Notes under the pieces: model-generated
Told to the model about the DNA's origin: nothing
The model's input: only the letters and a program-made list of their open reading frames with translations
Database searches by the model: none
Part shown: positions 7,937 through 26,855 of the stretch, in pieces
Position numbering within the stretch: the stretch's first letter is position 1
Layout: every line of letters begins with the position of its first letter
NCBI RefSeq assembly: GCF_010729895.1
Contig: NZ_AP022612.1
Location: 4,960,001 to 5,024,000, forward strand
Reading direction: 5' to 3'
Length of the DNA stretch: 64,000 bases
Origin: Mycolicibacterium confluentis
Lineage (GTDB): Bacteria > Actinomycetota > Actinomycetes > Mycobacteriales > Mycobacteriaceae
Translations under genes and position numbers: made by a program

Positions 7937-7961
7937 GTTTGGTGCGGTAACGTCACCGCCC

Positions 7962-8790: not shown

Positions 8791-9834
8791 TCAGCGGGTC
8801 TGCGTGAGGAACGCGCGATGCTCGCTGGGCCCGCCGAACAACGCCCGGTTCAGCGTCGCGCGCTTGAGATAGGTGTGAATGCCGCTCTCCCACGTGTAGC
8901 CGATGCCGCCGTGCAACTGCATGGCCTTGCCCGCGACCTCGACGGCGGCCTCACCGCAGTACGCCTTGGCCTTGGCGGCAGCCCGTGATGCGTCCGGATC
9001 ACCTTGGGCTACAGCAACACTGGCGGCACTGACCAACTGCCGCGCGACCGTCACCCGCACCAGCATGTCGGCGCATGCGTGCTTGACGGCCTGAAATGAG
9101 CCGATCGGACGGTCGAACTGCTCGCGCACCTTCACGTAGTCGACGGTCGCGTCCAGCATCGCGGCGGCCACGCCCAAGCTGTCGCACGCCAGAGCCACGC
9201 AGGCCCGGTCACGCACTGCGCCGAGAACAGACACCGGGTCACCGGCGAACGTCAGCACCTCAGCAGGCACTGAATCCGCGGACACCGTTGCCAGGCTGCG
9301 GGTCTCGTCGAGCACGGCCTGATCAACCACCGAGAGCTGCTCACCCTGTGCCGCTGCCACCACGACATCACCGTCAACGCCGACAGCAGGCAGCAGCACC
9401 CCCGACGCGCCGACGACATCGGACACGAACGCCGCACTGCCGCTCACACGACCAGCGCTGTCCACCCTGAAAGCCGGTTCAAAGTCGCGATGTTCACCAG
9501 AGATCACAGTCGCGACACCTGCCGTTCCCGCCGCCAGCCCGGACAGTAGCCGGTCGCGTAAACCACTGGGCTGCAGCTCATTCAGCAGTCCCGCGCTGAG
9601 CACCGCGGCGCCGAGAAATCCGCTGGCAACAGCGACGCGGCCCATCTCCTCGCCGATGATCGCGACCTCACGGAACGTCGCACCCGCGCCCCCGAAGTTC
9701 TCGCCGATCTCCAGTCCGGTCCACCCGGCCTGCGCCAGCACGTTCAGCGCCACCGCGCCGCCGCGCTCCTTGCCCAGCAGATCACCGGCGACCGAACGAA
9801 GTTCGTCATGAAGGTCACTGAAATCGAGGGTCAT
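8791..9834 (-). CDS. Acyl-CoA dehydrogenase, beta-type subunit (pair 1)
   Basis: A 347-residue FadE-family protein, shorter than a full homotetrameric acyl-CoA dehydrogenase. It retains the C-terminal FAD-contact segment REQFDRPIGSFQAVKH and GGIGYTWE, but the middle is poor in the usual GSD and catalytic-glutamate motifs. This is the profile of the non-catalytic chain of alpha2-beta2 dehydrogenases described for steroid CoA thioesters in mycobacteria. It overlaps the alpha-type gene upstream by 4 nt, consistent with translational coupling and a complex. It is the last gene of the ten-gene minus-strand operon. Pairing is inferred from order and motifs. Confidence 0.88.
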   Translation of the reverse strand: MTLDFSDLHDELRSVAGDLLGKERGGAVALNVLAQAGWTGLEIGENFGGAGATFREVAIIGEEMGRVAVASGFLGAAVLSAGLLNELQPSGLRDRLLSGLAAGTAGVATVISGEHRDFEPAFRVDSAGRVSGSAAFVSDVVGASGVLLPAVGVDGDVVVAAAQGEQLSVVDQAVLDETRSLATVSADSVPAEVLTFAGDPVSVLGAVRDRACVALACDSLGVAAAMLDATVDYVKVREQFDRPIGSFQAVKHACADMLVRVTVARQLVSAASVAVAQGDPDASRAAAKAKAYCGEAAVEVAGKAMQLHGGIGYTWESGIHTYLKRATLNRALFGGPSEHRAFLTQTR

Positions 9835-11003
9835 CGAACGCTCGGCTCCCGCGGCAGGCCGAGACCACGCTCAGCGATGATGGTGCGTTGGATCTCGCTG
9901 GCGCCGCCGGGAATGGTCCATTCCCACGACCCGATGAAATCCAGCACCCACGCGCCGGATTCCCATCCACTCGACGGCGGTTTGGTCAACACGGTGTGCG
10001 CGGCCACGCCACCGATGTCGACCGCGAAGTCGGTCATACGCTGCAGCAGTTCGCTGTAGTACAGCTTGACGATCGAGGCATCCGCCGCACCGGACGTGCC
10101 GGCCTCGCTGCGTTCCACCAGATCTCGGCAGAGTCCTCGCAGCCCGTCGATCTCGATCTCGAAGGCGCTCAGGCGATCCTGGACGGCGGAGTCGTCGATC
10201 GACCGGCACGCATCCACGAGCCAGCGGAACCCCGCATGACCCAGGCGCTCGGCGAGTTCCAGCATCGTCATCCCGCGCTCGGCGCCCAGCGTCGCCTGCG
10301 CGACCTGCCACCCGGCGTTCTCCGCTCCCACCAGGTTCGCGGCCGGGATCTCGACGTCGTTGAGGAATATCTCGCAGAAGTGTGACTCGCCGACGGCGTT
10401 GCGGATCGGGCGGACGTCGATTCCCGGTGTCGTCATGTCGAGCAGGAAATACGAGATGCCCTTGCGCTTGGGCGCATCGGGGGCGGTGCGCGCGAGCAAC
10501 AGGCACCAGTCGGCGTGCAGCCCACCGCTGGCCCAGAGCTTCTGGCCATTGACGACGTAGCGGTCCCCGACCTTACGGGCCGTGGTCCGCAGGCTCGCCA
10601 AATCCGATCCCGCCTCGGGCTCGGAGAAGCCCTGCACCCAGATCTCACCGTCCAGGATCGCTGGCAGGTGCCGACGACGCTGCTCCTCGGTCCCGGCCAC
10701 GAGCAGCGTCGAGGCGGCATGGTGGATGCCGACGAACGCCAGCACCAGGCGTGGTGCATCGTGGCGGGCCAACTCCTGGTACAGCACGATCTGCTCGGCG
10801 ACCGACATGCCGCCACCCCACTCGGCGGGCCAGTGCGGCACCGCATAACCCGCGGAGTTCAGTTCGGCGAACCACGACTTCTGAAAGGCCACGAACTCGT
10901 CGTCGCCGACACCGGTCTGGCGCGCCCGCCAGTCGGTGGGCACATGCTTGGCGCACCAGGTTCGGACGGTCTGGCGAAACTCCTCCAGCGCAGCGTCGGT
11001 CAT
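9831..11003 (-). CDS. Acyl-CoA dehydrogenase, alpha-type subunit (pair 1)
   Basis: A 390-residue acyl-CoA dehydrogenase with the full set of motifs: GFSEPEAGSDLASLRT (flavin and substrate site), NGQKLWASGG, a central LGAERG segment where the catalytic glutamate of FadE26-type enzymes is expected, and IPGGASEIQRTIIAERGLGLP at the end. The medium-chain catalytic glutamate of the IYEGT motif is not present, as in other steroid-type FadEs. The stop overlaps the beta-type gene start by 4 nt, and its own start overlaps the preceding gene by 4 nt. It introduces an alpha,beta double bond into an acyl-CoA; the chain is probably bulky, judging by family and context. Confidence 0.92.
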   Translation of the reverse strand: MTDAALEEFRQTVRTWCAKHVPTDWRARQTGVGDDEFVAFQKSWFAELNSAGYAVPHWPAEWGGGMSVAEQIVLYQELARHDAPRLVLAFVGIHHAASTLLVAGTEEQRRRHLPAILDGEIWVQGFSEPEAGSDLASLRTTARKVGDRYVVNGQKLWASGGLHADWCLLLARTAPDAPKRKGISYFLLDMTTPGIDVRPIRNAVGESHFCEIFLNDVEIPAANLVGAENAGWQVAQATLGAERGMTMLELAERLGHAGFRWLVDACRSIDDSAVQDRLSAFEIEIDGLRGLCRDLVERSEAGTSGAADASIVKLYYSELLQRMTDFAVDIGGVAAHTVLTKPPSSGWESGAWVLDFIGSWEWTIPGGASEIQRTIIAERGLGLPREPSVR

Positions 11004-11929
11004 GCCGAGTACAACCCGCTCAGACCGCGGCCGTCGACCCGGCCGGTCAGCAGATCACGCGTCGCCGAGAGCCCGAACGGCAGGCGCCGCAACGGTTGGC
11101 TGTACCGCGACAGCCACGACAAGGTCGTCTCGTCGCAGAACCCCACCGCTCCGTGGAGTTGATGGCACACGCGGAACACCACCTCGGCCGCCTCGATCGC
11201 GGCCATCCGCAGGGCGAGCGCATCGTCGAGTGCGACATCGGTCGGCACCCCCGAAGACGGCCCGGCACTCCACAGCGCATGCTTGGCCAGGATCTCGACG
11301 CCGCTGCGCTCGACCTCGGCGTCGGTCAACTGGAACTGCACACCCTGGAATCCGGACAGCGGCTGCCCGAACTGCTGACGCAGCTTGACGTGCGCCACGG
11401 TCAATTCCAGTGCGCGGTCCATCATTCCGAGCAGCGTCCAGCACGGCAGCACCAGACCGAGCGCCACCAGATCGCCGCCCACCGCGTCGACAGACGACAA
11501 CGAGAGTTCCGCAACGAAGACGGGGCGAACGGCCGAGGTGCCCACGACGGTGCTTCGCGCACCGTCGAGCGTCACGGCCTCCCACGGCCCGTCGACCAGG
11601 GCTATCGGCGCGGACGGGTTGTTCTCGGCGACCACCACCAGGCCCGCCCCGCCCGGGGTGGCACTGGACAGTCGTTCGGCCACCGGATACGGCAGCGCCC
11701 AGTACCCTGCGCTGCGGCACAGCGCCGCCGCGGCCTCAAGACTGTCGGCGTCGGTCCTCGGGTCCAGATCCCACGCCCCCAGTTCGGCCAGCACCGGGCC
11801 GACGAGTGCCTCGCGGGTGTCGGGTTTGGCCTCGGCCTGCTGCAGCAGTTGATCACCACCGGCGACCTCGAAGGCACGCTGTGCCTGCCGCCCGAATTCG
11901 GCTGCCTCGTCGCTGAGTTCGAGGATCAT
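11000..11929 (-). CDS. Acyl-CoA dehydrogenase, beta-type subunit (pair 2)
   Basis: A 309-residue, shortened member of the acyl-CoA dehydrogenase family. The FAD-contact stretch is recognisable as LRQQFGQPLSGFQGVQ and the C-terminal helix as CHQLHGAVGFCDE, but no GSD or catalytic-glutamate segment is seen. It lies between two alpha-type genes with 4-nt overlaps at both ends. Transcription order puts it directly after the alpha-type gene at 11926-13080, so those two probably form the second alpha2-beta2 enzyme. The degenerate sequence alone does not prove it is catalytically silent. Confidence 0.88.
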   Translation of the reverse strand: MILELSDEAAEFGRQAQRAFEVAGGDQLLQQAEAKPDTREALVGPVLAELGAWDLDPRTDADSLEAAAALCRSAGYWALPYPVAERLSSATPGGAGLVVVAENNPSAPIALVDGPWEAVTLDGARSTVVGTSAVRPVFVAELSLSSVDAVGGDLVALGLVLPCWTLLGMMDRALELTVAHVKLRQQFGQPLSGFQGVQFQLTDAEVERSGVEILAKHALWSAGPSSGVPTDVALDDALALRMAAIEAAEVVFRVCHQLHGAVGFCDETTLSWLSRYSQPLRRLPFGLSATRDLLTGRVDGRGLSGLYSA

Positions 11930-13080
11930 GATGCCGCCAACAGGGCACGCGACAGCAGGATCCGCTGCATCTCGATGCTGCCCGAGGAGACCGTGGACGC
12001 CTGGGAGTACCGCCAGTGGTCCTCGACCTCTTCGCGGAATCTGCGCACCGCGGGGTCGGTGACGTCAGCCGCGGCCACGATCTCCATCAGCACCTCGGCG
12101 CTGTCCTGGTCAAGCTTGGTCACCGCGATCCGATAGCCCGAGGCGTCCCCGGGGCGCACCTGCCCGGCGCTCTGCAGCGACACCAATCGATAAGCCAACA
12201 GGCGCGCCCGACGGCAGTGCACCAGCATGCGAGTCCATCTGGCGCGCAGCTCATCCGGCAGCTCGGCCCAGGCCGAACCCAATGCCGAAGGAGCGGTCTG
12301 CAGCAGCTTCTCGCATCGTGCGTAGCGGGCGATGCCGACGCGTTCGAAGGACAGCACGTCCTGCACGATCGACCACCCCGCACCGACCTCGCCCAGCACG
12401 TCGGCCTCGGTGACCCGCAAGTCGTCGAAGAAGACCTCGTTGAGATGGTGAGGGCCCATGATGCAGCGGATCGGCCGCACCTGGATCGCCGGGTCCGACA
12501 TCGGCACCAGGAAGATCGTCAACCCCTTCTGCTTCTTGTCCTCTTTCGAGGTGCGGGCCAGCAGGAAGCACCACTGGGCCATGGTGGCGTACGACGTCCA
12601 GATCTTCTGACCGCTGACCAGCCACCCGTTTCCATCGTCGGCGGGGCGTGCCGTGGTGCGCAGCGACGCGAGGTCGGAGCCGGCCTCGGGTTCGGAGAAT
12701 CCCTGGCACCAGATCACCTCCCCGGCTGCAATGGGCGGCAGGTGCTTGCGCTTCTGCTCGTTGGTGCCGTGCCGCATCACGATCGGCCCCACCCAGTTGA
12801 CGCCCATGTACTGCGCACCCCGGGGTTCGTGGTGCGCCCACATCTCCTCGCGCACCACGGTCTGCTCCCACACCGAGGCATCTCTGCCGCCGTACTCCTG
12901 CGGCCACGACATGCACAGCAGTCCCGCATCCGCCAGTGTCCGGCAGAACTGCTGTGCGGCAGCAAGATCCGCCGGGTTGTCGGTGAACGCGCCCATGAAG
13001 TCTTCGGGCAGGTGCGCGCCCACCAGGTCACGCAGTTGTGTGCGCAGCGCCGCGGCGTGGGCACCCATGTCGAAATCCAC
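11926..13080 (-). CDS. Acyl-CoA dehydrogenase, alpha-type subunit (pair 2)
   Basis: A 384-residue FadE protein with WCQGFSEPEAGSDLASLRT, VSGQKIWTSYA, a central LSFERVG that carries the likely catalytic glutamate, and the C-terminal SSGSIEMQRILLSRALL segment in place of the usual GGTSEIQRN. The last variation differs from pair 1 and may indicate a different acyl group. The start overlaps nothing; the CoA-transferase ends 12 nt upstream. The stop overlaps its beta-type partner by 4 nt. Predicted role: flavin-dependent alpha,beta-dehydrogenation of a CoA thioester made by the cluster's ligases or CoA-transferase. Confidence 0.92.
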   Translation of the reverse strand: MDFDMGAHAAALRTQLRDLVGAHLPEDFMGAFTDNPADLAAAQQFCRTLADAGLLCMSWPQEYGGRDASVWEQTVVREEMWAHHEPRGAQYMGVNWVGPIVMRHGTNEQKRKHLPPIAAGEVIWCQGFSEPEAGSDLASLRTTARPADDGNGWLVSGQKIWTSYATMAQWCFLLARTSKEDKKQKGLTIFLVPMSDPAIQVRPIRCIMGPHHLNEVFFDDLRVTEADVLGEVGAGWSIVQDVLSFERVGIARYARCEKLLQTAPSALGSAWAELPDELRARWTRMLVHCRRARLLAYRLVSLQSAGQVRPGDASGYRIAVTKLDQDSAEVLMEIVAAADVTDPAVRRFREEVEDHWRYSQASTVSSGSIEMQRILLSRALLAAS

Positions 13081-13092
13081 TGTGTGCGTCCC

Positions 13093-14268
13093 CTATCCCG
13101 ATCCCGCTGCGGACTCGGCGTCGGTGGTGGTCGGGCCCAACTCATGCAGCACCGCGGCGGTGTCTGCACCCAATTCCGGTGCCGGGCCCCGCACGTGCCC
13201 GGGGGTGCGGGAGAACCAGGTCGGCACACCCGGGAACCGTACGGGACCATGCGGCGTCTGCACGGTTTCGAACAGGCCGACGGCGGCCAGATGCGGATCA
13301 TCGAACAACGCGTCCGGTGTGCGGATCGGCGCCGCCGGGATCTCGAGTTCGTTGAACAGCTTGAGCCATTCGTCGGTGGTGCGTTCCTTGAGCGTCTGTG
13401 CCACCAGTCCATAGACCGTGTCGATCTGCCGTGCCCGGCGTTCCAGCGTCGCGTACAGGTCGCTGTTCCACGTCGGTTGGACGGCCTCGATGAACGCATT
13501 CCAGTGCTTGTCGTTGTAGATCAGCGCCGCGATGTGCCCATCCTTGGTCTCATACGGGCGGCGGTTGGGCGCAACGGTCCTCGGATAGACGGCGGGTCCG
13601 AGTGGAGGGTCGAACATGGCGCCGTTGGCATGCTCGACCAGCATGAACGAGGCCATGGTCTCGAACATGGGGACCTCGACCTCCTGCCCCTGGCCCGTGC
13701 GCTCGCGGTGGAACAGCGCCATCATCGTCGCGTAGAGAGCGGTCAGGCCGGCGACCTTGTCGGCCATGATGGTGCCGACGTAGTTGGCCTCGCCCGTCAA
13801 CTGCTCCTGGACGGCGGGGATCCCGCATTCGGCCTGAATGGTGTCGTCGTAGGCGGGGCGGTCAGCTTCGGGGCCGCGTCTGCCGTACCCGTAACAGTTG
13901 GTGTAGATGATGTTCGGGTTGATCGCCGCGACCTCGTCGTACGAGAAGCCCAGCTTGTCAACCGCCTTCGCGCGCATCGAGTGGATGAACACATCCGCGG
14001 TGCCGATCAGCGCGCGCAGCGCGTCCCGGCCGGCGTCAGTGCGCAGGTCGAGCACCACGCTGCGTTTGCCGCGGTTGACGTTGACGAACACGCCGCTCAA
14101 TCCGGGTGCGGGTCCCACCGAGATGTACCTGGTGTTATCACCCTGCGGCGGTTCGATTTTGATGACGTCGGCGCCCATGTCGGCCATGATCTGCGTGCAG
14201 TATGGGCCCATCACCATCGCGGTCAGGTCGACCACGCGCACGCCCTGCAGCGGCCCCGGGCTAGTCAT
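13093..14268 (-). CDS. Family III CoA-transferase (CaiB/BaiF type)
   Basis: A 391-residue protein with the family III N-terminus LQGVRVVDLTAMVMGPYCTQ, the CoA-binding segment GADVIKIEPPQGD and the catalytic-aspartate region RPAYDD. These enzymes move CoA between carboxylic acids without ATP; relatives act on carnitine, bile acids and aromatic acids. The start ATG at 14268 overlaps the stop of the preceding SDR by 8 nt, and the first acyl-CoA dehydrogenase begins 12 nt after the stop. In this operon it may recycle CoA from a downstream product onto the incoming acid. The donor and acceptor are unknown. Confidence 0.93.
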   Translation of the reverse strand: MTSPGPLQGVRVVDLTAMVMGPYCTQIMADMGADVIKIEPPQGDNTRYISVGPAPGLSGVFVNVNRGKRSVVLDLRTDAGRDALRALIGTADVFIHSMRAKAVDKLGFSYDEVAAINPNIIYTNCYGYGRRGPEADRPAYDDTIQAECGIPAVQEQLTGEANYVGTIMADKVAGLTALYATMMALFHRERTGQGQEVEVPMFETMASFMLVEHANGAMFDPPLGPAVYPRTVAPNRRPYETKDGHIAALIYNDKHWNAFIEAVQPTWNSDLYATLERRARQIDTVYGLVAQTLKERTTDEWLKLFNELEIPAAPIRTPDALFDDPHLAAVGLFETVQTPHGPVRFPGVPTWFSRTPGHVRGPAPELGADTAAVLHELGPTTTDAESAAGSG

Positions 14269-15199
14269 GGGACACCGTCTGCGCGGCCATGCCGAAGCTG
14301 TACCGGATGTGGTCAGTGTGCCCGTCCGGGACCACGGGGAACACGACCTGCTCCGCGGTGTCACGGATGGCGGCCATCTCCGCCGCGACCTCTTCCATGG
14401 TCCACGACGGACGGTGGACGCCCTGCGTCTCAGCGATGTAGGCGCGGGCCACCCGGCCTGCGATGGCGATCAGGATCTCGCCTGTGACCGAGCAGGTTTC
14501 GTGCGCGAGCCAGCCGGCCGTAGGCGCGACGAGGTCGGCGCCCATCGGCGGATACGCCGACGTGTCGAGGCCTTCGGCCATGCGGGTGACGGCCCCGGGC
14601 ACGATGACGTTGCACGTGACGTTCGCCGCCGCACCCTCGAGCGCCGCGACGTTGGACAGCCCGATGATCCCGGCCTTGGCCGCGCCGTAGTTGGCGACGT
14701 CGTGGTTGCCGTAGAGGCCACCGATTGAGGACGTCAGGACCAGGCGGCCGTAACCTGCCTGCGTCATGTGCGCGAACGCGGGGCGGACCACATGGAAGGC
14801 CCCGCGCAGGTGCACATCAAGCACGGCATCGAAGTCCTCGTAGGACATCTGCGCCAGCGGGGCGCGACGGACGTTGCCCGCGTTGTGAATCAGGATGTCG
14901 AGCCGGCCGTAGTTCTCCAGCGCGGCGTCGATGATCGCCTTTCCGCCCTCGGGAGTCGCCACCGACGCCGAGGAGGCGACGGCTTCTCCACCGGCCAGGA
15001 TGATCTCCTCGACCACCTCCTGCGCCGGTCCGGTGTCGGCGCCCGCACCGGTCAGCGATCCTCCGACGTCGTTGACCACCACCTTGGCCCCGCGCGACGC
15101 CAGCAGCAGCGCGTACTCGCGGCCCAACCCGCGGCCCGCGCCGGTGACGGCGGCGACCCGGCCGTCGAACCGCAACTCAGGTGCGGAGGACGAGACCAT
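14261..15199 (-). CDS. Short-chain dehydrogenase, HSD17B4-like
   Basis: A 312-residue SDR with FDGRVAAVTGAGRGLGREYA (TGAGRGLG at residues 19-26), VVNDVGG, NAGN and the YGAAK active site. The FDGRVA start, VNDVGG and long C-terminus resemble the 3-hydroxyacyl-CoA dehydrogenase domain of multifunctional enzyme 2 (HSD17B4), although the hydratase part is absent. The ATG at 15199 overlaps the end of the monooxygenase gene by 23 nt; the longer upstream frame is discarded because it is only the shadow of that gene. A plausible job is oxidation of a 3-hydroxyacyl-CoA or ring alcohol in the operon's pathway. Confidence 0.88.
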   Translation of the reverse strand: MVSSSAPELRFDGRVAAVTGAGRGLGREYALLLASRGAKVVVNDVGGSLTGAGADTGPAQEVVEEIILAGGEAVASSASVATPEGGKAIIDAALENYGRLDILIHNAGNVRRAPLAQMSYEDFDAVLDVHLRGAFHVVRPAFAHMTQAGYGRLVLTSSIGGLYGNHDVANYGAAKAGIIGLSNVAALEGAAANVTCNVIVPGAVTRMAEGLDTSAYPPMGADLVAPTAGWLAHETCSVTGEILIAIAGRVARAYIAETQGVHRPSWTMEEVAAEMAAIRDTAEQVVFPVVPDGHTDHIRYSFGMAAQTVSHD

Positions 15200-17045
15200 C
15201 GAGGTCGCCCTTGTCACGCCACTCCCGCAGCAGCTCACCGAACGCGTAGAAGCCGGGACCGTACGGTTCGCCGAGGTGCGAACGGATGCCCTCACCCGCG
15301 TCCTCCCCCTGGCCTCCGCCTTCGTTGTTGTAGTACCCCGGTGTGCACTCGGCATCAAACGCCGAGGTGTCGACCGCGGTCTCACGAATCGTGGCGCCCC
15401 AGGCGGCCTGGGCCTCCTCGGTGGGTTCGACCGTGGTCGCGCCACGGTCCAGCGCTTCGGCGATGATGTACGCGATGTGCTCGCCCTGCAGTTCGTAGTT
15501 GGCCGAGATGTTGGCCGAGATTCCCACCTGGGTGAACCCGGTGAAGAACTGATTTGGGAAGCCTCGACTGGTCATTCCGTGCAGGGTCCGATAGCCGTGC
15601 GCCCAGTTGTCGTACAGCGACACCCCGTCCCGGCCCTCGACGGTGTCGATCGCATAGCGACGGCTGATCTCGGTCGTGATCTCGAACCCGCTCGCGAAGA
15701 TGATGCAGTCGACCTCGAACTCCTGCCCGTTGGCCACGAGTCCCTTGTCGGTGATCCGTTCGACACCCTTGGTCTCCGAGACGTCCACCAGCGTGACGTT
15801 GGGGCGGTTGAACGTCTGCAGGTAGTCGTCGTTGGAACATGGCCGCTTGCACAGGAATCGGTAGTACGGCTTGAGCGACTCCGCGGTGTCCGGGTCGTCC
15901 ACCAGGGCCTCGATCCGGCGGCGCAACCGCTCCATGAGCTTGTAGTCCTCCTCCTCGCGGATGCCCATGAACTGCTCGGGCGTCATCGAGGCGGGGTCGG
16001 GCAGTGCCAGCACGCGGGCAGCGGTGTTGCGGCCCAGCTCGGTCCAGAAGTCGCACACCAGGTCGGGTTGGCCCAGCGCCATGCCCTCGAACGTCCAGGA
16101 GTGGAAGTTGCGCTGGCGCTCCTTCTGCCACCCGGGTTGCAGGTTCTTCGCCCACTCCGGGTCCGTCGGCGAGTTGTTGCGCTCGTCGACGGTCGACGGT
16201 GTGCGCTGGAAGACGTAGAGGTGCTGGGAATCTCGGCCCAGGAATGGCACCAACTGCACGCCGGTGGCACCCGTGCCGATCAGGGCGACCTTCTTGTCGG
16301 CGAGCTTCTCCAACCCGCCGCTGGCGTCTCCGCCGGTGTAGTCGTAGTCCCACCGCGAGGAGTGGAAGATGTGTCCGCCCGCGTCGACGAACTCCTTGAT
16401 GCCCGGGATGCCGGGAAGTTTGGGCCGGTTGAACGAACCGGAGGCAAGCACCACGAAACGGGCGCGGATGTCGTCACCGCGGTTGGTGCTGATCCGCCAG
16501 CGGTTGATGCTGTCGTCCCATTTCAGGTCGCGGACCTGGGTGGAGAAGATCGCGCCGTCGTACAGGCCGAAGTGCTTGCCGATGTTGCGGCAGTGCTGGT
16601 AGATCTCGGCGCCGTCGGCGAACTTCTTGCTCGGTATGAAGTCGAGCTCTTCCAGCAGCGGGACGTAGCAATAGGATTCGTTGTCACACTGGATTCCCGG
16701 ATAACGGTTCCAGTACCACACCCCACCGAAGTCGCCGCCCTGCTCGATGATGTGCACATCCTCGACGCCGGCCTTCTTCAGGTAGGCGCCGCACAGCAGT
16801 CCCGCGAAGCCGCCACCGAGGACGGCCACGTCGATGTCGGTGTCGATCACGTCACGCTCGACGAACGGCGTGTGGGGGTCGGCCTCGGCGAATCCCGCGT
16901 ATTGGCCCGTGGTCTCGATGTACTGCTTGGAACCCTCCTTGCGCAGGCGCTTCTCGCGCTCGGCGCGGTACTTGTCCCGCAGGGCGTCGATGTCGATGTC
17001 GGTGGGCGTCTCGGTGGGACCGCAGCCGTTCTCAACGGTCGTCAT
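15177..17045 (-). CDS. Baeyer-Villiger-type flavin monooxygenase
   Basis: A 622-residue class B flavoprotein. An acidic N-terminal extension of about 70 residues precedes the FAD motif LGGGFAGLL (76-84), then YWNRYPGIQCD, the core of the BVMO fingerprint G-x3-H-x3-W-D (residues 222-233, with Ala where Phe is usual) and the NADPH motif VALIGTGATGVQ. The extension and WYWNRYPG wording are like cyclopentadecanone and steroid-type BVMOs rather than simple FMOs. Such enzymes insert one oxygen next to a ketone to give an ester or lactone. The gene overlaps its neighbours by 4 and 23 nt, so it is central to the operon. The ketone substrate is unknown. Confidence 0.9.
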   Translation of the reverse strand: MTTVENGCGPTETPTDIDIDALRDKYRAEREKRLRKEGSKQYIETTGQYAGFAEADPHTPFVERDVIDTDIDVAVLGGGFAGLLCGAYLKKAGVEDVHIIEQGGDFGGVWYWNRYPGIQCDNESYCYVPLLEELDFIPSKKFADGAEIYQHCRNIGKHFGLYDGAIFSTQVRDLKWDDSINRWRISTNRGDDIRARFVVLASGSFNRPKLPGIPGIKEFVDAGGHIFHSSRWDYDYTGGDASGGLEKLADKKVALIGTGATGVQLVPFLGRDSQHLYVFQRTPSTVDERNNSPTDPEWAKNLQPGWQKERQRNFHSWTFEGMALGQPDLVCDFWTELGRNTAARVLALPDPASMTPEQFMGIREEEDYKLMERLRRRIEALVDDPDTAESLKPYYRFLCKRPCSNDDYLQTFNRPNVTLVDVSETKGVERITDKGLVANGQEFEVDCIIFASGFEITTEISRRYAIDTVEGRDGVSLYDNWAHGYRTLHGMTSRGFPNQFFTGFTQVGISANISANYELQGEHIAYIIAEALDRGATTVEPTEEAQAAWGATIRETAVDTSAFDAECTPGYYNNEGGGQGEDAGEGIRSHLGEPYGPGFYAFGELLREWRDKGDLDGLVLRT

Positions 17046-18223: not shown

Positions 18224-18237
18224 GCTTCTCCTTCGTT

Positions 18238-18280: not shown

Positions 18281-18284
18281 GTCG

Positions 18285-19658
18285 CTAGCGGGGGCGCGGC
18301 TCGCCGGTGCCCATGTACTTGGACAGTTGGTGGTGCAGGTTGACGGTGCTGCGTTCGCGATATGGGTTGGGCAGGGTGCCCGGGAAGCCCGCCGACTTCA
18401 TGCCCTGCTGCACGGCCGCCATGTTGGAGAAGTCCTGGGGCAGCACCGACAGCCAGTTCGGGCTGTCCTGCGGGGTGTACTCCCATTCGGTCTGTGGTTC
18501 TTGACCTTTCGGGTACAGCTCCAGGGTGGCCACCTCGAAGATGCACTTGTTCGGGTCGTAGCTCGGGTCGGGCCGCGCGCTGTAGCACAGCGCGGTGGTC
18601 AGGCCCTGGCCGATCTGGAAGTTCGGGAAGATCTGCCAGGCAGTGCCGGCCTGTCCGAGGATGTCGGCCGGAATGGTCGGCCAGACGACACCGCGGGCCT
18701 CGTCGTCGCGCCGGGCCGAGGACAGCCAGTGTTCGAGCACCTTGTCCGGCGGCGTGCCCTCGGGCAGCTCGTCGACCAGGCGCTTGGCGGCGTTCACCAG
18801 CGTCTCGGTGGTGGTCGCGTTGGTCTGCTCCCAGGTGTACATCTGCATCTCCGCGGTGGAGACGCGGGGGTCGTCACCGGTGCCCAGGCGGATCTTGGAC
18901 TTGGTGGCCTCCATGTTCTTCGGGGCGTCGTAGCCGATGTTGCTGTGCTTGCCCTGCGCCTTGGCCCAGCCCTTGAATTCGCCGAACTTGTTGAACTCCG
19001 GGTGCGTGGTGAACACGTGGTAGGTCTCGTTGAACGCCTCCAGCGCGACCTTCCAGTTGCAGTCGAAATACAGCCATTTTCGCCACTTGCAGCGCATGTT
19101 CTCCAGCCCGAACGGGTCGAGGATCTTGGCGGCGGGGAACAGGTAGTCGGCCAGCGGTTCGCAGTCGGGATCCATGTTGATCCACAGCCAGCCGCCCCAG
19201 GTGTCCACGCTGACCCTGGCCAGATGGGTGTTGGCCGGTGTCAACGTGCCTTTCCAGTCGTCCTGCTCACGGATGTGCGTGCACGCCCCGTCCAGTCCGT
19301 AGGTCCACCCGTGAAACCCACACACAAACGACTTGCGGGCCCGTCCCACAGCGTTCTTGGCTCCGGCAGGCACGTCGATAAGGCGACGGCCGCGGTGCAT
19401 GCACACGTTGTGATGGGCCGCGAACTCATTCGGCCCGGTGCGCACCACGATGATCGAGTCGTCGAGGATGTCGTAGGTCAGGTAACTCCCGACCTCGGGC
19501 AGGTCCTCGACGCGGCCGACCTGCTGCCACACCTTGCGCCACAGCCGGTCCCGTTCTGCGCGGGCGTACTCCGGTGAGATGTAGGCGTCGACCGGAATGG
19601 TCACGGGCTCTGACAGTTCCTCCGCGTGATCGATCGCGGGGATCTCGGTGTCGGTCAC
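18285..19658 (-). CDS. Rieske non-haem iron oxygenase, alpha subunit
   Basis: A 457-residue ring-hydroxylating oxygenase large subunit. The Rieske cluster ligands are C86-M-H88 and C113-x2-H116; the catalytic iron site follows in NETYHVFTTHPE with H214 and H219. The start is the GTG at 19658, because GGGAGG stands just before it, and this GTG overlaps the stop of the SDR by 4 nt. It is not KshA: the spacing and sequence around the Rieske motif differ. No beta subunit, ferredoxin or reductase is encoded beside it, so it must be a homo-oligomeric type fed by electron carriers from elsewhere. Predicted role: hydroxylation of the cluster's substrate. Confidence 0.92.
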   Translation of the reverse strand: MTDTEIPAIDHAEELSEPVTIPVDAYISPEYARAERDRLWRKVWQQVGRVEDLPEVGSYLTYDILDDSIIVVRTGPNEFAAHHNVCMHRGRRLIDVPAGAKNAVGRARKSFVCGFHGWTYGLDGACTHIREQDDWKGTLTPANTHLARVSVDTWGGWLWINMDPDCEPLADYLFPAAKILDPFGLENMRCKWRKWLYFDCNWKVALEAFNETYHVFTTHPEFNKFGEFKGWAKAQGKHSNIGYDAPKNMEATKSKIRLGTGDDPRVSTAEMQMYTWEQTNATTTETLVNAAKRLVDELPEGTPPDKVLEHWLSSARRDDEARGVVWPTIPADILGQAGTAWQIFPNFQIGQGLTTALCYSARPDPSYDPNKCIFEVATLELYPKGQEPQTEWEYTPQDSPNWLSVLPQDFSNMAAVQQGMKSAGFPGTLPNPYRERSTVNLHHQLSKYMGTGEPRPR

Positions 19659-20512
19659 GTTGCCTCCCAACTGGTTATGGCCGCACGGAACGATTCGTCC
19701 TTGAGGAACAGCGACGTGTTGTCCGCGCCGAGATGTGTCCAGCGCAGGTTCAGTCCCCCGTCGACCAACAGGGTCTGTCCGGTGATGTAGCTCGACAGTT
19801 CCGAGAGCAGGAAGAGGATCGCGCCCGCCTGCTCCTCGGGCCGGCCACGGCGTCCCATGGCGATCGCGCGACGATCGCGGTCCGGGTCGGCGTCGACGTA
19901 GGTGCCCGACGCGGGGGTCTCGGTGACGCCGGGTGCGACGGCGTTGATGCGAATGTTGTCCGCGGCCAATTCGACGGCCATGGTGCGGGTGGCCGCGACG
20001 ACGGCGGCCTTGGCGGTGCCGTAGGCGACGTGGAACGGCGCGGTGTTGATGCCGCTGATGGAGGAGATCGACACGATCGAACCGGGCAGCGCGCCGGCGC
20101 GCAGTTCGGCGGCCACGGCCTGGCTCATGAAGAACATCGTCTCGAGGTTCTGGGCGAACAGTGCGCGCCAGTCGGACCGGCTGACCCGGGTGGACGGCAT
20201 CCAGGTCTGCGGCCCGGCGCCCCCGGCCACGTTGACCAGTCCGTACATCTGGCCGTCGGCATTCCGGGCGGCCTCGAGCGCGGCGTCGATGCCCTCATCG
20301 GTGCCCGCGTCAGCGGCGACCGGGATGACCTTCAGCCCCTCATCGACCAGCGGTGCGACGTGCTGATCCAGGTTCTCCTTGGACCTGCTGACCGCGACGA
20401 CGGTGGCGCCCGCACCGGCCACCATCCGAGTGACCGTCGTGCCGATGCCGCCACCAGCGGCGCCAGACACGATCACCACGCGGCCGTCCAGCCCCAACAG
20501 CTCGTTCGTCAC
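19655..20512 (-). CDS. Short-chain dehydrogenase, first gene of the minus-strand operon
   Basis: A 285-residue SDR with VVIVSGAAGGGIG near the N-terminus (a glycine-rich variant of TGxxxGIG), VNVAGGAG in place of NNAG and YGTAK as active-site tyrosine-lysine. The start is set at the GTG 20512, which has GAGG 5 nt upstream; a GTG at 20521 is the alternative. It is the promoter-proximal gene of the ten-gene operon, and its end overlaps the Rieske oxygenase start by 4 nt. Unusual changes in both glycine motifs suggest a divergent subfamily. Likely role: alcohol-ketone interconversion in the pathway. Confidence 0.88.
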   Translation of the reverse strand: MTNELLGLDGRVVIVSGAAGGGIGTTVTRMVAGAGATVVAVSRSKENLDQHVAPLVDEGLKVIPVAADAGTDEGIDAALEAARNADGQMYGLVNVAGGAGPQTWMPSTRVSRSDWRALFAQNLETMFFMSQAVAAELRAGALPGSIVSISSISGINTAPFHVAYGTAKAAVVAATRTMAVELAADNIRINAVAPGVTETPASGTYVDADPDRDRRAIAMGRRGRPEEQAGAILFLLSELSSYITGQTLLVDGGLNLRWTHLGADNTSLFLKDESFRAAITSWEAT

Positions 20513-20540
20513 AGACCTCACCCGTCAGCACCAGCCGCTA

Positions 20541-20551
20541 ATTGTCTGGAC
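20541..20551. promoter_or_regulatory. Candidate GntR/UTRA operator, minus-operon side
   Basis: ATTGTCTGGAC occurs here, 29 bp upstream of the minus-strand operon start, and again at 20638-20648. The core GTCTGGAC fits the GTnTnnAC pattern of HutC-type GntR operators such as GTCTAGAC. The only regulator encoded in the island is a GntR/UTRA protein. Confidence 0.6.
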
Positions 20552-20574
20552 ATAAAATGCGTGTGCACTCATTT

Positions 20575-20589
20575 GAGAACATCATTCTC
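20575..20589. promoter_or_regulatory. Inverted repeat in the centre of the divergent promoter
   Basis: GAGAA (20575-20579) and TTCTC (20585-20589) form a perfect 5-bp inverted repeat around CATCA, midway between the two GTCTGGAC sites. It could be a second operator or part of a promoter; short arms make this tentative. Confidence 0.35.
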
Positions 20590-20637
20590 TACAGTTCGTC
20601 CGCCCGTCAAGACCGAAATTCACCCCATGCAGACGCT

Positions 20638-20653
20638 ATTGTCTGGACCAGAC
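20638..20653. promoter_or_regulatory. Candidate GntR/UTRA operator, plus-operon side
   Basis: The second ATTGTCTGGAC copy (20638-20648) extends into the palindrome GTCTGG-A-CCAGAC (20641-20653). It lies 21 bp before the GTG chosen for the SMP-30-like gene and would overlap its transcription start region, a good place for repression. Confidence 0.65.
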
Positions 20654-20674
20654 TGGATTGATAGTGTCCGAGCC

Positions 20675-22282: not shown

Positions 22283-22288
22283 CACCCC

Positions 22289-23032
22289 ATGACGACGCAG
22301 AACTCCTCGACGGATCCCCGCTACCTTCAGGTGGCGCGCGTGCTGCGGCAGGAGATCGTCGACGGGATCTACCCTGTCGGCTCGCAGCTCCCCACCGAAC
22401 ATGCCCTGTGTGAACGCTTCTCGGTGAGCCGCTACACCGTGCGCGAGGCGTTGCGCCGACTGCGCGACGACAACCTGATCGCGTCGCGCCCCCGCGCCGG
22501 CACGATGGTGGTGCCCCGCACGTCGACGAGTTCGTACGCCCAGGACGTCATGTCGATCGACGACCTGATGGCCTTCGCGACGGGTGCGCGCTTCGTCATC
22601 AACGCCAACAAGATGCTGACCGTGGACGCCGACCTCGCGGCGCGCACCGGTCTGACGGTCGGCGAGGAGTGGCTCGCGGTCGGTGGCTACCGGCAGGTCG
22701 AGGGCGCCCCCAACCCGGTGTGCTTCACGGAGTACTACATCAATCGGTCGTTCGCGGCCGTGGGCCGAATGCTGCAACGGCACAACGGCCCCATCTTCCC
22801 GCTCATCGAGGACATGTTCGGCCGCAGCATCGTCGAAGTGCACCAGGAGATCTCGGCCGTGCTGATGCGCACCGACCTGGCCGCACGCCTCGATGTGGAC
22901 CCCGGCACGGCCGCCCTTGAGGTGCGCCGCACCTACACCACCTCTGACGGTGAAACCGCGCAGGTCACGATCAACACACATCCGGCGTCCCGCTACCGCT
23001 ACTCGATGACTCTGCGCCGGGTGAAGGGATGA
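22289..23032 (+). CDS. GntR-family regulator with UTRA domain (HutC subfamily)
   Basis: A 247-residue one-component regulator. The N-terminal winged helix-turn-helix is clear (YLQVARVLRQEI, GSQLPTEHALCERF, VSRYTVREALRRLRDD, ASRPRAGTMVV; about residues 11-75). The rest matches an UTRA ligand-binding domain, with CFTEYYINRSFAAV and a final VRRTYTTSDGETAQV strand set. It starts 6 nt after the propeller gene and overlaps the following CoA ligase by 4 nt. It is the only transcription factor inside the island, and two GTCTGGAC sites lie in the shared promoter, so it probably represses both arms until a pathway intermediate binds. Confidence 0.92.
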   Translation: MTTQNSSTDPRYLQVARVLRQEIVDGIYPVGSQLPTEHALCERFSVSRYTVREALRRLRDDNLIASRPRAGTMVVPRTSTSSYAQDVMSIDDLMAFATGARFVINANKMLTVDADLAARTGLTVGEEWLAVGGYRQVEGAPNPVCFTEYYINRSFAAVGRMLQRHNGPIFPLIEDMFGRSIVEVHQEISAVLMRTDLAARLDVDPGTAALEVRRTYTTSDGETAQVTINTHPASRYRYSMTLRRVKG

Positions 23033-24591
23033 CGCGGGTGCCGGTCACCGAGGACATCCGGGAGTCAGCACATCGGCACGAATGGTGGGTGTCGACCACA
23101 CTGGCCGACACGCTGCGCGAGGCCGCCGAGGCCACCCCGGACCGCGTCCTGATCGTCGACGGGGACGTGCGTCTGGACTGCGCGACGCTGCTGCGCCAGG
23201 CCGACACCCTGGCGCAGGCACTCGTGGCCCGGATGCCGGTGGGCAGCGTGGTGTCGTTCATGCTGCCCAACTGGCACGAAGCCGCCGTGGTCTATCTGGG
23301 AGCGACGTTGGCCGGCATGGTGGTCAACCCCATCCTGCCGTCGCTGCGCGACCACGAACTGCGGTTCATCCTGGACGACGCCGACTCTCGAATGATCTTC
23401 GTGCCCTCCGAGTTCCGCGGTCACGACTACGCCGCCATGCTCGCCCGCGTCGTCACCGAGGTGAGCGACCCCCCGGAAGTCGTGGTGGTGCGCGGCGACG
23501 GGCACATGCCCTACGCCGACCTGTTCCGCGATTCGGGCACCGGCCTGCGGCTTCCACAGCTCGATCCCGACGCCGTCCGTATGATCCTCTACACCTCGGG
23601 CACCACGGGCCGCGCCAAAGGGGTGCTGCACAGCCACAATTCGCTGCACGCACTGATCTGCCAACTGCGCGACAACTGGCACATCACACCCGGGGATCGT
23701 TTCCTGGTGCCGTCGCCGATCGCGCACATCGGCGGGTCCATCTACGCATTCGAGTGCCCGCTGCTGCTGGGTACCACCGCGGTGCTCATGGACAGATGGG
23801 ACGCCGACGACGCGGTGGCGCTCATGACCGCACACCGCTGCACACACATGGCCGGTGCCACGCCGTTTCTGACCCAACTGCTCGACGCCGCGCGCCGCGC
23901 CGGAACCAGGCTGCCCGATCTGAAGGTCTTCATCTGCGGCGGCGCCTCAGTGCCACCGTCGTTGATCCGCAGTGCGACGGAGTATTTCGACCGCGCTCTG
24001 GTCAGCCGGGTGTACGGGTCCACCGAGGTGCCGGTCACCACGGTGGGCGCGTGCACGCCCGGTGACACCGACCACGCCGCGGACACCGACGGCCGCCCCG
24101 GCATCGCCGACGTCGTGATCATCGACGGCGAGATCAGGGCCCGCGGGGCGCAGATGCTGCTCGGGTATCTGCATGCCGAGGACAACACCGAGGCCTTCGA
24201 CACCGACGGCTACTTCCGCACGGGAGACCTCGGCGAATGGGTCGACGGCGACTACCTCATGGTGACCGGACGCGCCAAGGACATCATCATCCGAAACGGT
24301 GAGAACATCTCTCCCAAAGAGATCGAGGACATCCTCATCACCGAACCCGGCATCGCCGAGATCGCGATAGTCGGACTGCCCGATCCTCGCACCGGCGAAC
24401 GCGCCTGCGCGGTGGTCGTACCCGACGGCTCCCCGCCCGACCTCGCACGCCTGCACGACGTCCTGGTGGCCGCCGGCGTGGCCCGGTTCAAAGTCCCCGA
24501 ACAGGTGGTCGTCTGGGATGCGCTTCCCAAGAACGATGCGGGCAAGGTACTCAAACACCGGATCCGGGCGGCTCTGGCCGAGCCGAACTGA
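23029..24591 (+). CDS. Acyl-CoA ligase, cyclohexanecarboxylate-CoA-ligase-like
   Basis: A 520-residue ANL-superfamily ligase. The P-loop LYTSGTTGRAKG is at residues 187-198, with VYGSTEVP (A5), YFRTGDLGEW (A7), IIIRNGENISPKEIE (A8) and the catalytic-lysine region PKNDAGKVLKH (A10). The general wording resembles cyclohexanecarboxylate and medium-chain acid CoA ligases. It overlaps the regulator gene by 4 nt and is followed after 12 nt by an SDR. It would activate a free carboxylic acid with ATP and CoA at the entry of the pathway or after ester cleavage. Substrate choice is inferred only from overall resemblance. Confidence 0.92.
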   Translation: MTRVPVTEDIRESAHRHEWWVSTTLADTLREAAEATPDRVLIVDGDVRLDCATLLRQADTLAQALVARMPVGSVVSFMLPNWHEAAVVYLGATLAGMVVNPILPSLRDHELRFILDDADSRMIFVPSEFRGHDYAAMLARVVTEVSDPPEVVVVRGDGHMPYADLFRDSGTGLRLPQLDPDAVRMILYTSGTTGRAKGVLHSHNSLHALICQLRDNWHITPGDRFLVPSPIAHIGGSIYAFECPLLLGTTAVLMDRWDADDAVALMTAHRCTHMAGATPFLTQLLDAARRAGTRLPDLKVFICGGASVPPSLIRSATEYFDRALVSRVYGSTEVPVTTVGACTPGDTDHAADTDGRPGIADVVIIDGEIRARGAQMLLGYLHAEDNTEAFDTDGYFRTGDLGEWVDGDYLMVTGRAKDIIIRNGENISPKEIEDILITEPGIAEIAIVGLPDPRTGERACAVVVPDGSPPDLARLHDVLVAAGVARFKVPEQVVVWDALPKNDAGKVLKHRIRAALAEPN

Positions 24592-24603
24592 GAGGAACAA
24601 CCC

Positions 24604-25389
24604 ATGCAGGTAGCGATAGTCACGGGAGCCAGCAGCGGCATCGGATTCGGCTGCGCCACAGCGCTTGCCCAGCAGGGGATCGCCGTCCTGGGCACCGGCC
24701 GCGATGAGGATCGGCTGGCGGCCCTGCGCGATGCGGTGGCGCAGAGCACGGGCGACCCGGACCGGGTGGGCACCATCGCGGTCGACCTCACGGCCGACGA
24801 CGCGCCCACGCGGATCGTCGAGGCTGCGATCCAGCGCTGGGGGCGCATTGACTTCCTGATCAACAACGCCGGCGTCGGAAGCCCCAAACCGCTACACGAG
24901 ACCGACGACGAATCCCTCGATCACTTCCTGGGTCTCATGCTGCGGGCGCCATTCCGATTGGCGCGCGACGTCATTCCGCACATGCGGGAGGGGTCGGCGA
25001 TCATCAACATCACCTCCACGTTCGCCGTCGTGGGTGGCCTGCGTGGAGGCGCCTATTCGGCGGCCAAGGGTGGGCTGACCGCGCTGACCACGCACATCGC
25101 GTGTCAGTATGGGCCGCAGGGAATCCGCTGCAACGCCGTCGCCCCCGGGGTCACCATCACTCCAATGGTCGAGCACCGCCTGGAGGACGAACGCTTCCGC
25201 AAGATCAACACCGAGATGACCCCGCACCAACGTCTCGGCCGGGTCGAGGACATCGCGTCCACGGTGGCCTTCCTGTGCTCGCCGGGTGGCTCATTCATCA
25301 ACGGGCAGACCATCGTGGTCGACGGCGGGTGGAGTTCGACCAAGTACCTCTCGGACTTCGCACTCGATTCTCAGTGGGTGCCCCGGTGA
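24604..25389 (+). CDS. Short-chain dehydrogenase/reductase
   Basis: A 261-residue SDR with TGASSGIG at residues 7-14, NNAG near 86, Ser in NITSTFAVV and YSAAK as the active-site tyrosine-lysine, followed by [18 protein letters not shown] precedes the ATG. It sits between two CoA ligases in the plus-strand operon and its stop overlaps the start of the second ligase by 4 nt. Probably oxidises a hydroxyl group of a free acid or CoA thioester; nothing in the sequence identifies the substrate. Confidence 0.9.
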
Positions 25390-26855
25390 ACATCTTCGGC
25401 GTGCTGGACAACGCAGCCACGCGTTTTCCCGACCACGGCGCGGTGTACCTCGGCACCGAGCAGCAGTGCACATTTTCCGAACTTCGCGACCGCGCACTGC
25501 GATTGGCGTCCTCGCTGCGGCGGTCCGTCGCACCCGGCAGCCGGGTCGCGCTCGCCAGTGAGAACCGGCCCGAACTGCTCGAGGTGTTGTTCGGCATCTG
25601 GGCCGCCGACTGCGTCGTCGTGCCGATCAATTTCAAGCTGCACCCGCGGGAGATGGTCGACATCCTGGGGGACTCCGGTGCCGCCGCGGTGTTCGCCTCC
25701 CCCAAGATCGCCGAATCCCTGTCGCCGTTGGCCAACACCCCCATTGACGTTTTCGGCACCCCGGCCTATCTCGACCGCTTCGATGCCGAGCCTTCGTCCG
25801 GACCGTCGGCGGATCCGTCCGCGCTGGCATGGCTGTTCTACACCAGCGGCACCACCGGCAAGTCCAAGGGCGCGATGCTGTCCCACCGCAGCCTCACGGC
25901 GATGACGCTCGCGCACCTGGCCGACATCGACTCCCCCGACCACAACTCGAGCCTGATCCACGCCGCGCCGATGTCACACGGTTCCGGGCTGTACATCCCG
26001 GCCTACGTCTCACGCGGTGCGCGGCAGGTCATTCCGGCCTCCGGCATGTTCGACGCCGACGAGTTCCTCAACCTGTGCAGCGCGCATCCCCGCTGCGCCG
26101 CGTTCCTGGCTCCGACCATGGTGCAGCGGCTGGTGGACACCGGCCGGTCAGCGCCCGACAACCTGCGCACCGTCGTGTACGGCGGCGGACCGATGTACGT
26201 CGACAGCCTCAAGAAGGCCATGGCGGCATTCGGGCCGATCTTCGCCCAGATCTACGGACAGGGCGAGTCCCCCATGACGATCACCGGGTTGCCCCGAGCC
26301 GACCATGTGTCGGCCGACGACGCGGTCCTCGGCTCGGTCGGCTACACCCGTTCGGGCGTCGAGGTCGAGGTCGTGGGCCCGGACGGATCCCCGCTCGGGC
26401 CCGGCGAGATCGGCGAGATCGTGTGCCGCGGCGATGTCGTCATGTCGGGGTACTGGAACAACCCGACCGCAACCGCGGAGGCGCTGGCCGGGGGTTGGCT
26501 GCACACCGGGGATTTGGGCTCCTTCGACAACCGCGGACACCTGACCCTGCGAGACCGCTCCAAGGACGTGGTGATCAGCGGTGGAAGCAACATCTACCCA
26601 CGCGAGGTCGAGGAGGTTCTGCTCGAACATCCCGACGTGCGCGAGGCCTGCGTCGTCGGAGCGCCCGATCCGGAGTGGGGCGAGATTGTGGTCGCGTTCG
26701 TGGTCGGGACGGCCGACAAAGGTGTGCTCGACGCCCACCTGCTGGAGCGGATCGCCCGCTTCAAACGTCCGAAGCGCTATCTGTTCGTCGATGACCTGCC
26801 GAAGAACAGCTACGGAAAGGTGCTCAAGCGCGAATTGCGTGCTCGTCTGGGCTGA
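25386..26855 (+). CDS. Acyl-CoA ligase (FadD family)
   Basis: A 489-residue ANL-superfamily ligase. The P-loop [12 protein letters not shown] is at about residues 151-162, then [10 protein letters not shown] (A5), [11 protein letters not shown] (A7), [23 protein letters not shown] (A8) and [12 protein letters not shown] (A10). The start is the GTG at 25386, which overlaps the upstream SDR stop by 4 nt and coincides with the start of homology-like sequence ([16 protein letters not shown]). It ends the five-gene plus arm. Two different ligases in one operon suggest that two acids, for example parent acid and cleavage product, need CoA activation. Confidence 0.92.

Follow-up and report, generated by a model that had tools for sequence, protein, structure and literature searches.

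The stretch of DNA analysed here (the window) comprises 64,000 nucleotides, positions 4960001-5024000 of the 5.88-Mb single-contig genome of Mycolicibacterium confluentis, and its region 8791-26855 encodes a cluster of 15 genes, among them a type I Baeyer-Villiger monooxygenase (BVMO), a Rieske oxygenase, a GntR-family regulator with a UTRA domain and a luciferase-like flavin monooxygenase (LLM). Our comparison with other genomes revealed that most relatives of this cluster possess, instead of LLM, a thiamine diphosphate (ThDP)-dependent enzyme, usually accompanied by an aldehyde dehydrogenase (ALDH), and that the swap between the LLM and ThDP genes is exclusive and repeated in the genomes sampled. 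The gene content of the cluster, its conservation, the repeated operator-like sites and the swap itself were all established by computation. On balance we slightly favour the reading that these genes form a conserved catabolic cluster with which Mycobacteriaceae break down an alicyclic or polycyclic ketone of terpenoid- or steroid-like kind; in mycobacteria the GntR/UTRA protein would govern the whole cluster as a unit, and LLM would replace a step carried out by the ThDP lyase and ALDH.

Clustering of the open reading frames (ORFs) of neighbouring loci identified two extra conserved genes, located 3' of SDR_m (a short-chain dehydrogenase/reductase, SDR), of the CoA-transferase or of the acyl-CoA dehydrogenase (FadE) genes; one encodes the ThDP enzyme (PF02776, PF00205, PF02775) and the other ALDH (PF00171). 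Whole-genome searches in 198 genomes of the genus (E <= 1e-80) found the ThDP gene in 102 and LLM in 51, with both in none, where 26 would be expected (Fisher p 7e-21, a value that ignores the relatedness of the genomes). In the 149 genomes listed with a BVMO at least 69% identical to that of the window (weaker matches fall outside the list), the ThDP gene is present in 99 and LLM in 50, and no genome has both or neither. Four genomes (G008, G031, G034 and G145) are ThDP- or LLM-positive and lie outside this list; one of them, G034, was fetched and contains a 69% identical BVMO together with LLM. The same pattern is seen at the level of loci, with both genes together in 0 of 102. A scan of named genomes with BVMO, from which we took the best 80 of 592 stretches, yielded 52 loci with the ThDP gene, 21 with LLM, none with both and seven with neither: three on short or cut contigs (L056, L067, L111), three from Mycolicibacter (L082, L092, L107), and L109. 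The BVMO coordinates of L082 and L107 are those of genomes G174 and G101, in which the ThDP gene sits on another contig. LLM is located between the Rieske and BVMO genes, 0-72 bp before BVMO (21 named loci), and the ThDP gene lies at a median of 6.2 kb after BVMO (52 named loci); given these different positions, the two genes are not alleles of one slot. The original prediction for this DNA missed the swap, because one genome cannot show it.

The genome of the window has no ortholog of the ThDP gene (best match 31%). We note that positions 61675-63252 of the window show a 24% match to the ThDP gene of relatives; this is perhaps another ThDP enzyme, not an ortholog. ALDH, called at E <= 1e-200, is found in 101 of the 102 ThDP genomes, in 11 of the 51 LLM genomes and in 12 genomes with neither gene. 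Thus, no sampled genome with LLM has the ThDP gene, and most of them, though not all, lack ALDH as well. The window genome encodes an ALDH at 5371190, up to 88% identical to the cluster copies; as this exceeds the median identity of the cluster copies to each other (78%), we take it as a moved ortholog.

The history of the swap was reconstructed on trees built from cluster genes, which possibly recombine, so the numbers of changes describe histories of the cluster, not of the species. In a tree of 99 loci based on joined Rieske, SDR_m and SDR_t proteins, where rows with a ThDP gene or ALDH were labelled ThDP and four rows stayed unlabelled, at least six changes of label are required, five of them forced by branches with Shimodaira-Hasegawa-like approximate likelihood ratio test (SH-aLRT) support of at least 95. 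Since 18 of the 19 outgroup rows are ThDP (the remaining one, L164, being unlabelled), ThDP is likely the ancestral state. The window and L185, both with LLM, group with L041, a ThDP locus (support 97), within a group of five that holds three ThDP loci (support 98). A tree of 151 loci based on Rieske and SDR_t (140 different rows, after exclusion of L109, L167, L251 and of rows that had no label or lacked the genes) requires a minimum of nine label changes, six of them forced by well-supported branches; the nearest supported neighbour of the window there is L208, another LLM locus.

In terms of general chemistry, an alpha-hydroxyketone, 1,2-diketone or 2-oxo acid could be turned into one and the same acid in two ways: a ThDP lyase would cleave or decarboxylate it to an aldehyde that ALDH then oxidises with NAD, or a flavin monooxygenase would insert oxygen, with hydrolysis to follow. 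We infer the substrate, the chemistry and the order of steps as follows. The Rieske oxygenase would hydroxylate a ring, SDR_t would then oxidise the alcohol, and BVMO would convert the ring ketone to an ester or lactone, which may be opened by the double propeller or by another hydrolase. The resulting acid would be activated by a FadD ligase or by the CoA-transferase and undergo beta-oxidation by the FadE pairs and the MFE-2-like SDR_m. The FadE proteins resemble PimC/D and IpdE2, which we take to act on dicarboxyl-CoA esters, and this likeness would fit, weakly, a ring-cleaved diacid. A second C-C cleavage would be performed in most relatives by the ThDP lyase and ALDH, e.g. on an alpha-hydroxyketone, 1,2-diketone or 2-oxo acid; in the window genome and in roughly one third of the sampled mycobacteria that bear the cluster, LLM would carry out the equivalent oxidation with O2, most simply by a Baeyer-Villiger-type reaction giving the acid directly. 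The Rieske oxygenase and SDR_t, common to both versions, could supply the alpha-oxygenated ketone. The original prediction had proposed a catabolic set leading from ketone through ester or lactone and CoA ester to enoyl-CoA, which the gene logic supports, and had stated correctly that neither hydratase nor thiolase is included in the cluster.

We give about even chances to the specific proposal that this is an undescribed ring-degradation pathway, widespread in environmental mycobacteria, in which the lyase route of ThDP enzyme and ALDH was displaced several times by an unrelated O2-dependent LLM performing the same net cleavage, with exactly one of the two in each genome. If so, the cluster would represent a natural repeated experiment in non-orthologous displacement, between a lyase route that needs no O2 and a monooxygenase route that depends on it, and the reaction of LLM, otherwise unassignable, would become predictable from that of the ThDP enzyme. 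One regulator with two operator-like sites would provide an inducible system for finding the substrate, and a role would be assigned to a cluster whose BVMO (at least 69% identity) is encoded by 149 of the 198 sampled genomes of Mycobacterium.

The two arms of the cluster diverge from a gap that contains two copies of the palindrome TTGTCYGGAC, 97 bp apart from start to start. The whole genome has only five matches to this pattern, two of them in this gap (11 for a reversed control pattern). We cut out 72 such gaps of 50-900 bp, 70 of them mycobacterial (68 from named loci, plus those of the window and L185) and two from other genera. All 70 mycobacterial gaps have at least one copy of the palindrome and 60 have two, spaced by 95-97 bp in 59 of the 60, as compared with 0.025 loci with a site per round of 70 base-shuffled gaps; the palindrome is absent from both gaps of other genera. 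The simplest reading of these patterns is that each promoter has one copy to which the GntR/UTRA protein encoded in the cluster would bind, and the occurrence of like sites on both sides of the gap agrees with the two-armed organisation originally proposed. We also considered the regulon as a route to the hydratase and thiolase; it offered just three further sites genome-wide. One of them, at 4805873, is flanked by a ligase-like gene and by another gene of GntR type (identities judged from the first residues only).

The cluster is widely conserved. With presence defined as a tblastn match that covers more than 35% of the query at an identity of at least 50-65%, depending on the gene, nine genes (SDR_p, FadD_a, GntR, propeller, SDR_t, Rieske, BVMO, SDR_m and CoA-transferase) are all present in 66 of the 70 named loci of at least 21 kb, which had been found by BVMO alone; this synteny exceeds chance. 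The exceptions are L109 and the Mycolicibacter loci L082, L092 and L107, which retain SDR_t, Rieske, BVMO and SDR_m. The contig of L109, titled MAG (metagenome-assembled genome) Klebsiella pneumoniae, has a 71% identical BVMO and no other cluster gene, and may come from a mislabelled or contaminated bin. The variable members are FadE (34 of the 70 loci), FadD_b (47), LLM (17), the ThDP gene (49) and ALDH (52). The best named relatives of BVMO, among the matches listed, belong to Mycobacterium sensu lato. The G+C content of the cluster (0.65-0.68) is the same as that of the window, which together with the genus-wide synteny led us to reject a recent genomic island; contrary to the term "island" used in the original prediction, the cluster is common across the genus Mycobacterium.

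Across the family, the Rieske protein turned up in 56 of 301 genomes (9 of 31 genera), and in a sample of the phylum in 11 of 396 genomes, ten of them from the family and one other with only 31% identity, so that no distant cluster was usable to name the substrate. Of 20 stretches fetched around Rieske matches, L167 is a paralogous locus within the genus itself and the remaining 19 belong to other genera of the family. All 19 other-genus loci contain Rieske, BVMO and SDR_m; SDR_t, the propeller and the ThDP gene are each present in 18 (the locus without the ThDP gene, L164, is a short contig) and ALDH in 16; the CoA-transferase is present in one, and LLM and an ortholog of the cluster's GntR protein in none. 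No ortholog of LLM was detected outside the genus in the 301 family genomes (best identity 37%). The paralogous locus L167 (G102, 3677001-3697000) encodes relatives of Rieske (53%) and GntR (50%), without BVMO and beside two ligase-like genes, and perhaps belongs to a sister pathway. In the other-genus loci L153, L158 and L168 ALDH is followed by some of the following: a TauD-family dioxygenase, SnoaL-like proteins, SDRs and a carboxymuconolactone-decarboxylase-like protein. In some other genera (L157, L160, L162) the FadE block forms a separate divergent operon with a crotonase in mid-block and an adjoining GntR/FCD regulator; the best match of this crotonase in the window genome is only 45% identical and we claim no ortholog.

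The genes of the cluster, delineated from ORFs and family scans, are listed in the table; start codons inside longer ORFs were chosen by us. If 20512 and 20675 are taken as starts, ten genes on the minus strand and five on the plus strand flank a divergent gap of 162 bp, as originally proposed, and for the chosen starts the overlaps of 4-23 nt are also correct. Only three SDRs are found among the 15 genes and not four, as the fourth (7962-8708, plus strand) lies outside the cluster.

Features of the cluster in window coordinates (ACAD, acyl-CoA dehydrogenase)
Feature	Position	Strand	Remarks
FadE_s1, acyl-CoA dehydrogenase, small-subunit type	8791..9834	-	ACAD N- and C-terminal domains, middle domain absent
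FadE_L1, acyl-CoA dehydrogenase, large-subunit type	9831..11003	-	three ACAD domains; top NCBIfam pimC_large, 217 bits, below cut-off
FadE_s2, acyl-CoA dehydrogenase, small-subunit type	11000..11929	-	ACAD C-terminal domain alone
FadE_L2, acyl-CoA dehydrogenase, large-subunit type	11926..13080	-	three ACAD domains; pimC_large, 183 bits, below cut-off
Family III CoA-transferase	13093..14268	-	PF02515, 386.8 bits; in 66/70 named loci of at least 21 kb
SDR_m	14261..15199	-	SDR resembling the (3R)-hydroxyacyl-CoA dehydrogenase domain of MFE-2; top PDB 2et6, 323 bits
Type I BVMO, PtlE-like	15177..17045	-	NCBIfam PtlE, 667 bits; PDB 5mq6, E 8.7e-124; motif GGVWYWNRYPGIQCD
LLM, luciferase-like flavin monooxygenase	17042..18223	-	PF00296; nearest solved structure alkanal monooxygenase alpha, 8cbb
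Rieske oxygenase, large component	18285..19658	-	PF00355 and PF00848; top solved match carnitine monooxygenase, 6y9c
SDR_t, first gene of the minus arm	19655..20512 (alternative start 20521)	-	PF13561, 181.7 bits; in 69/70 named loci of at least 21 kb
Operator-like copy 1, TTGTCTGGAC	20542..20551		minus-arm side of the gap
Operator-like copy 2, TTGTCTGGAC	20639..20648		plus-arm side of the gap
Tandem double beta-propeller, possible lactonase	20690 (ATG) or 20675 (GTG)..22282	+	Vgb_lyase/NHL/SGL matches
GntR-family regulator with UTRA domain	22289..23032	+	PF00392 and PF07702
FadD_a, acyl-CoA ligase	23029..24591	+	PF00501
SDR_p, SDR dehydrogenase	24604..25389	+	PF13561, 210.8 bits
FadD_b, acyl-CoA ligase, variable member	25386..26855	+	PF00501; in 47/70 named loci of at least 21 kb

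The closest curated family of BVMO is neopentalenolactone D synthase PtlE (NF045818), matched with 667.3 bits over residues 22-621 and the complete profile (1-587 of 587), below the family cut-off of 1100. Among solved structures the best match is 5mq6, presumably a fungal polycyclic ketone monooxygenase (417 bits), ahead of phenylacetone monooxygenase (up to 265 bits) and steroid monooxygenase 4aos (213 bits); the "sterol-type" label originally given to this BVMO is therefore not upheld. With motif patterns that we take to define the Rossmann folds and the Baeyer-Villiger fingerprint, we found GxGxx[GA] at 77 and 257 and [AG]GxWxxxx[FY]P[GM]xxxD at 107; the strict FxGxxxHxxxW[PD] pattern is unmatched, and an HSSRWD stretch is present in the translation. 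The Rieske protein scores above the Pfam cut-off for both PF00355 (53.8 bits) and PF00848 (60.2 bits), and its nearest solved structure, carnitine monooxygenase, matches with 84 bits. Spacing-bound regular expressions gave no match to its metal sites; the translation does show a cluster-site motif whose spacer is longer, and 81 of 100 relatives have an NE[TA]YH..H motif. The four FadE genes fall into two large/small pairs resembling PimC, PimD and IpdE2, all below the respective cut-offs (the top NCBIfam match of FadE_s1 is IpdE2, 136.6 bits against a cut-off of 450), and FadD_a is closest to cyclohexanecarboxylate-CoA ligase, at 334 bits against 792. The regulator scores above the cut-off for both the GntR helix-turn-helix domain and UTRA, and reaches no subfamily cut-off among the 25 matches listed. 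The AlphaFold2 model of the propeller protein (predicted local distance difference test, pLDDT, 91) comprises two propellers in tandem, which bears out the "double SMP-30" description as a fold; its top fold matches are LRP6-type tandem propellers, so that a lactonase role is only plausible. Besides the SGL and Vgb_lyase matches, there are weak ones to 8djf and 7ris. The LLM model is weak (pLDDT 67), with luciferases matching first and the type II BVMO 4uwm at ranks 29 and 50, and we rejected it as a judge between aldehyde and Baeyer-Villiger chemistry.

Several observations weigh against the favoured reading. ALDH is kept in 11 LLM genomes, including that of the window (moved) and L076, where LLM and ALDH lie within one cluster, and therefore LLM may replace the ThDP enzyme alone. 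The nearest solved relatives of LLM are luciferases, with the proven type II BVMO only at rank 29 of a weak model; no flavin reductase for LLM was recognised among the 15 genes, and the propeller is no proven lactonase. For the window considered by itself, 3 of 100 shuffles gave two or more operator-like sites. The phylogeny-aware sign test is weak: with LLM and ThDP traits scored apart, five of five independent pairs are opposite in the 92 rows of at least 19 kb (p 0.0625), and in all 99 rows, where cut loci count as lacking the ThDP gene, on average 4.4 pairs are opposite and 0.6 not different (median p 0.125). Another 5/5 pair count omitted rows with neither gene, and the p of 0.031 from the 151-locus tree relies on one combined label; both are partly results of construction.

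Exclusivity would likewise follow from niche choice, if LLM and ThDP/ALDH marked two sub-pathways for different substrates and each lineage specialised on one. BVMO itself exists in diverged forms, 69-76% versus 77-95% identical to that of the window, of which the low-identity ones are commoner in ThDP loci (36/52 at 69-73%) than in LLM loci (4/21 at 70-71%), and the label needs eight changes on the BVMO tree, four of them forced. However, these forms sort only imperfectly with the label (LLM loci span 70-85% and ThDP loci 69-81%), and the nine other genes and the operator-like sites are shared by both versions, with an identical gene order in the loci displayed. We regard this explanation as rather improbable. 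We hold similarly doubtful the idea of an alpha-oxidation step in which the ThDP enzyme would act as 2-hydroxyacyl-CoA lyase or oxalyl-CoA decarboxylase and the family III CoA-transferase would recycle formyl-CoA, LLM performing an oxidative decarboxylation in its place. Such enzymes (oxalyl-CoA decarboxylase and 2-hydroxyacyl-CoA lyase/synthase) are among the best solved matches of the ThDP protein (187 bits), and a lyase of this kind is used in actinobacterial 2-hydroxyisobutyrate breakdown, according to the available part of PMC7176365. Yet for the representative from L054 acetolactate synthase scores equally or higher, both among profiles (253 bits, as compared to 219 for oxalyl-CoA decarboxylase NF006721, whose cut-off is 557) and among solved structures (189.5 bits), and the CoA-transferase accompanies both versions and is absent from 18 of the 19 other-genus loci.

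Assignment to sterol or bile-acid catabolism appears to us unlikely, slightly more so than either of these two. The paired FadE genes, the MFE-2/17beta-HSD4-like SDR and the proximity of BVMO to an enzyme that presumably acts on bulky ketones would agree with it. Nevertheless, none of the 15 genes scores over the cut-off for KstD, KshA/B or Hsa proteins, the markers by which we looked for a steroid (KstR-type) cluster (HsaA matches a FadE with 21.9 bits against a cut-off of 450), and a comparison of mycobacterial cholesterol genes, searched by term, contains neither "luciferase" nor "Baeyer" (PMC6429209).

The original prediction did not recognise a described pathway here, and indeed no published description of this gene set was found in the open-access literature, although a subscription paper could still exist; single gene families are known, and the cluster itself is apparently undescribed. 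The camphor pathway of Pseudomonas putida, initiated by a P450, reportedly employs an LLM-type Baeyer-Villiger enzyme and then a type I BVMO; its type II BVMO is 4uwm, the fold match of LLM, and we know of no ThDP alternative in that pathway. PtlE is a biosynthetic enzyme; BVMO of the window, unlike members of that family (NF045818), falls short of its cut-off.

The action of LLM as a Baeyer-Villiger enzyme has a precedent, since in Caenibius tardaugens, as far as the accessible part of the report goes, both an LLM and a type I BVMO perform Baeyer-Villiger oxidation of progesterone (PMC12239570). According to the same excerpt, the pdc cluster of this bacterium likewise encodes the two enzymes together, there in steroid catabolism, but it has four genes with TetR and LuxR regulators, and the window cluster, with GntR-UTRA only, does not belong to that type; moreover, LLM and BVMO are interchangeable there, whereas here BVMO stays and LLM replaces the ThDP gene (and ALDH). 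Judging by the available descriptions, three further systems are comparable: BVMO4 of Dietzia sp. D5, a CPDMO-group enzyme of another mycolic-acid actinobacterium, active on methylcyclohexanones, menthone and ketosteroids (PMC4052671, in part); the ADD+ cluster of Mycolicibacterium smegmatis, which includes the steroid-linked LLM MSMEG_4862 (PMC12239570, in part) and, close in numbering, the KstD-like MSMEG_4864 and MSMEG_4870 (PMC5270728, in part), such KstD-like genes being absent from the 15 genes here; and the anthraquinone cluster of Sphingobium sp. AntQ-1, with BVMO-led ring opening and a luciferase-type gene beside it, which differs in its aromatic quinone substrate and its location on a sphingomonad megaplasmid (PMC9836352, in part). 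Two other candidates were set aside: the lumichrome pathway shares ThDP and Rieske enzymes, but the available part of its description names no BVMO step (PMC12752717), and comparison with RslO1, a luciferase-like enzyme of rishirilide synthesis (PMC7221717, in part), leaves the chemistry of LLM unsettled.

To the left of the cluster the window encodes a cytochrome P450 (420-1976), an SDR (2438-3157), an acyl-CoA ligase (3660-5348), a major facilitator superfamily transporter (5354-6643), a 2,4-diaminopentanoate-dehydrogenase-like protein (6787-7956) and the SDR at 7962-8708 mentioned above, which is near trans-4-hydroxycyclohexanecarboxylate dehydrogenase (298.8 bits, cut-off 400). The last two genes flank the cluster in L042 too.

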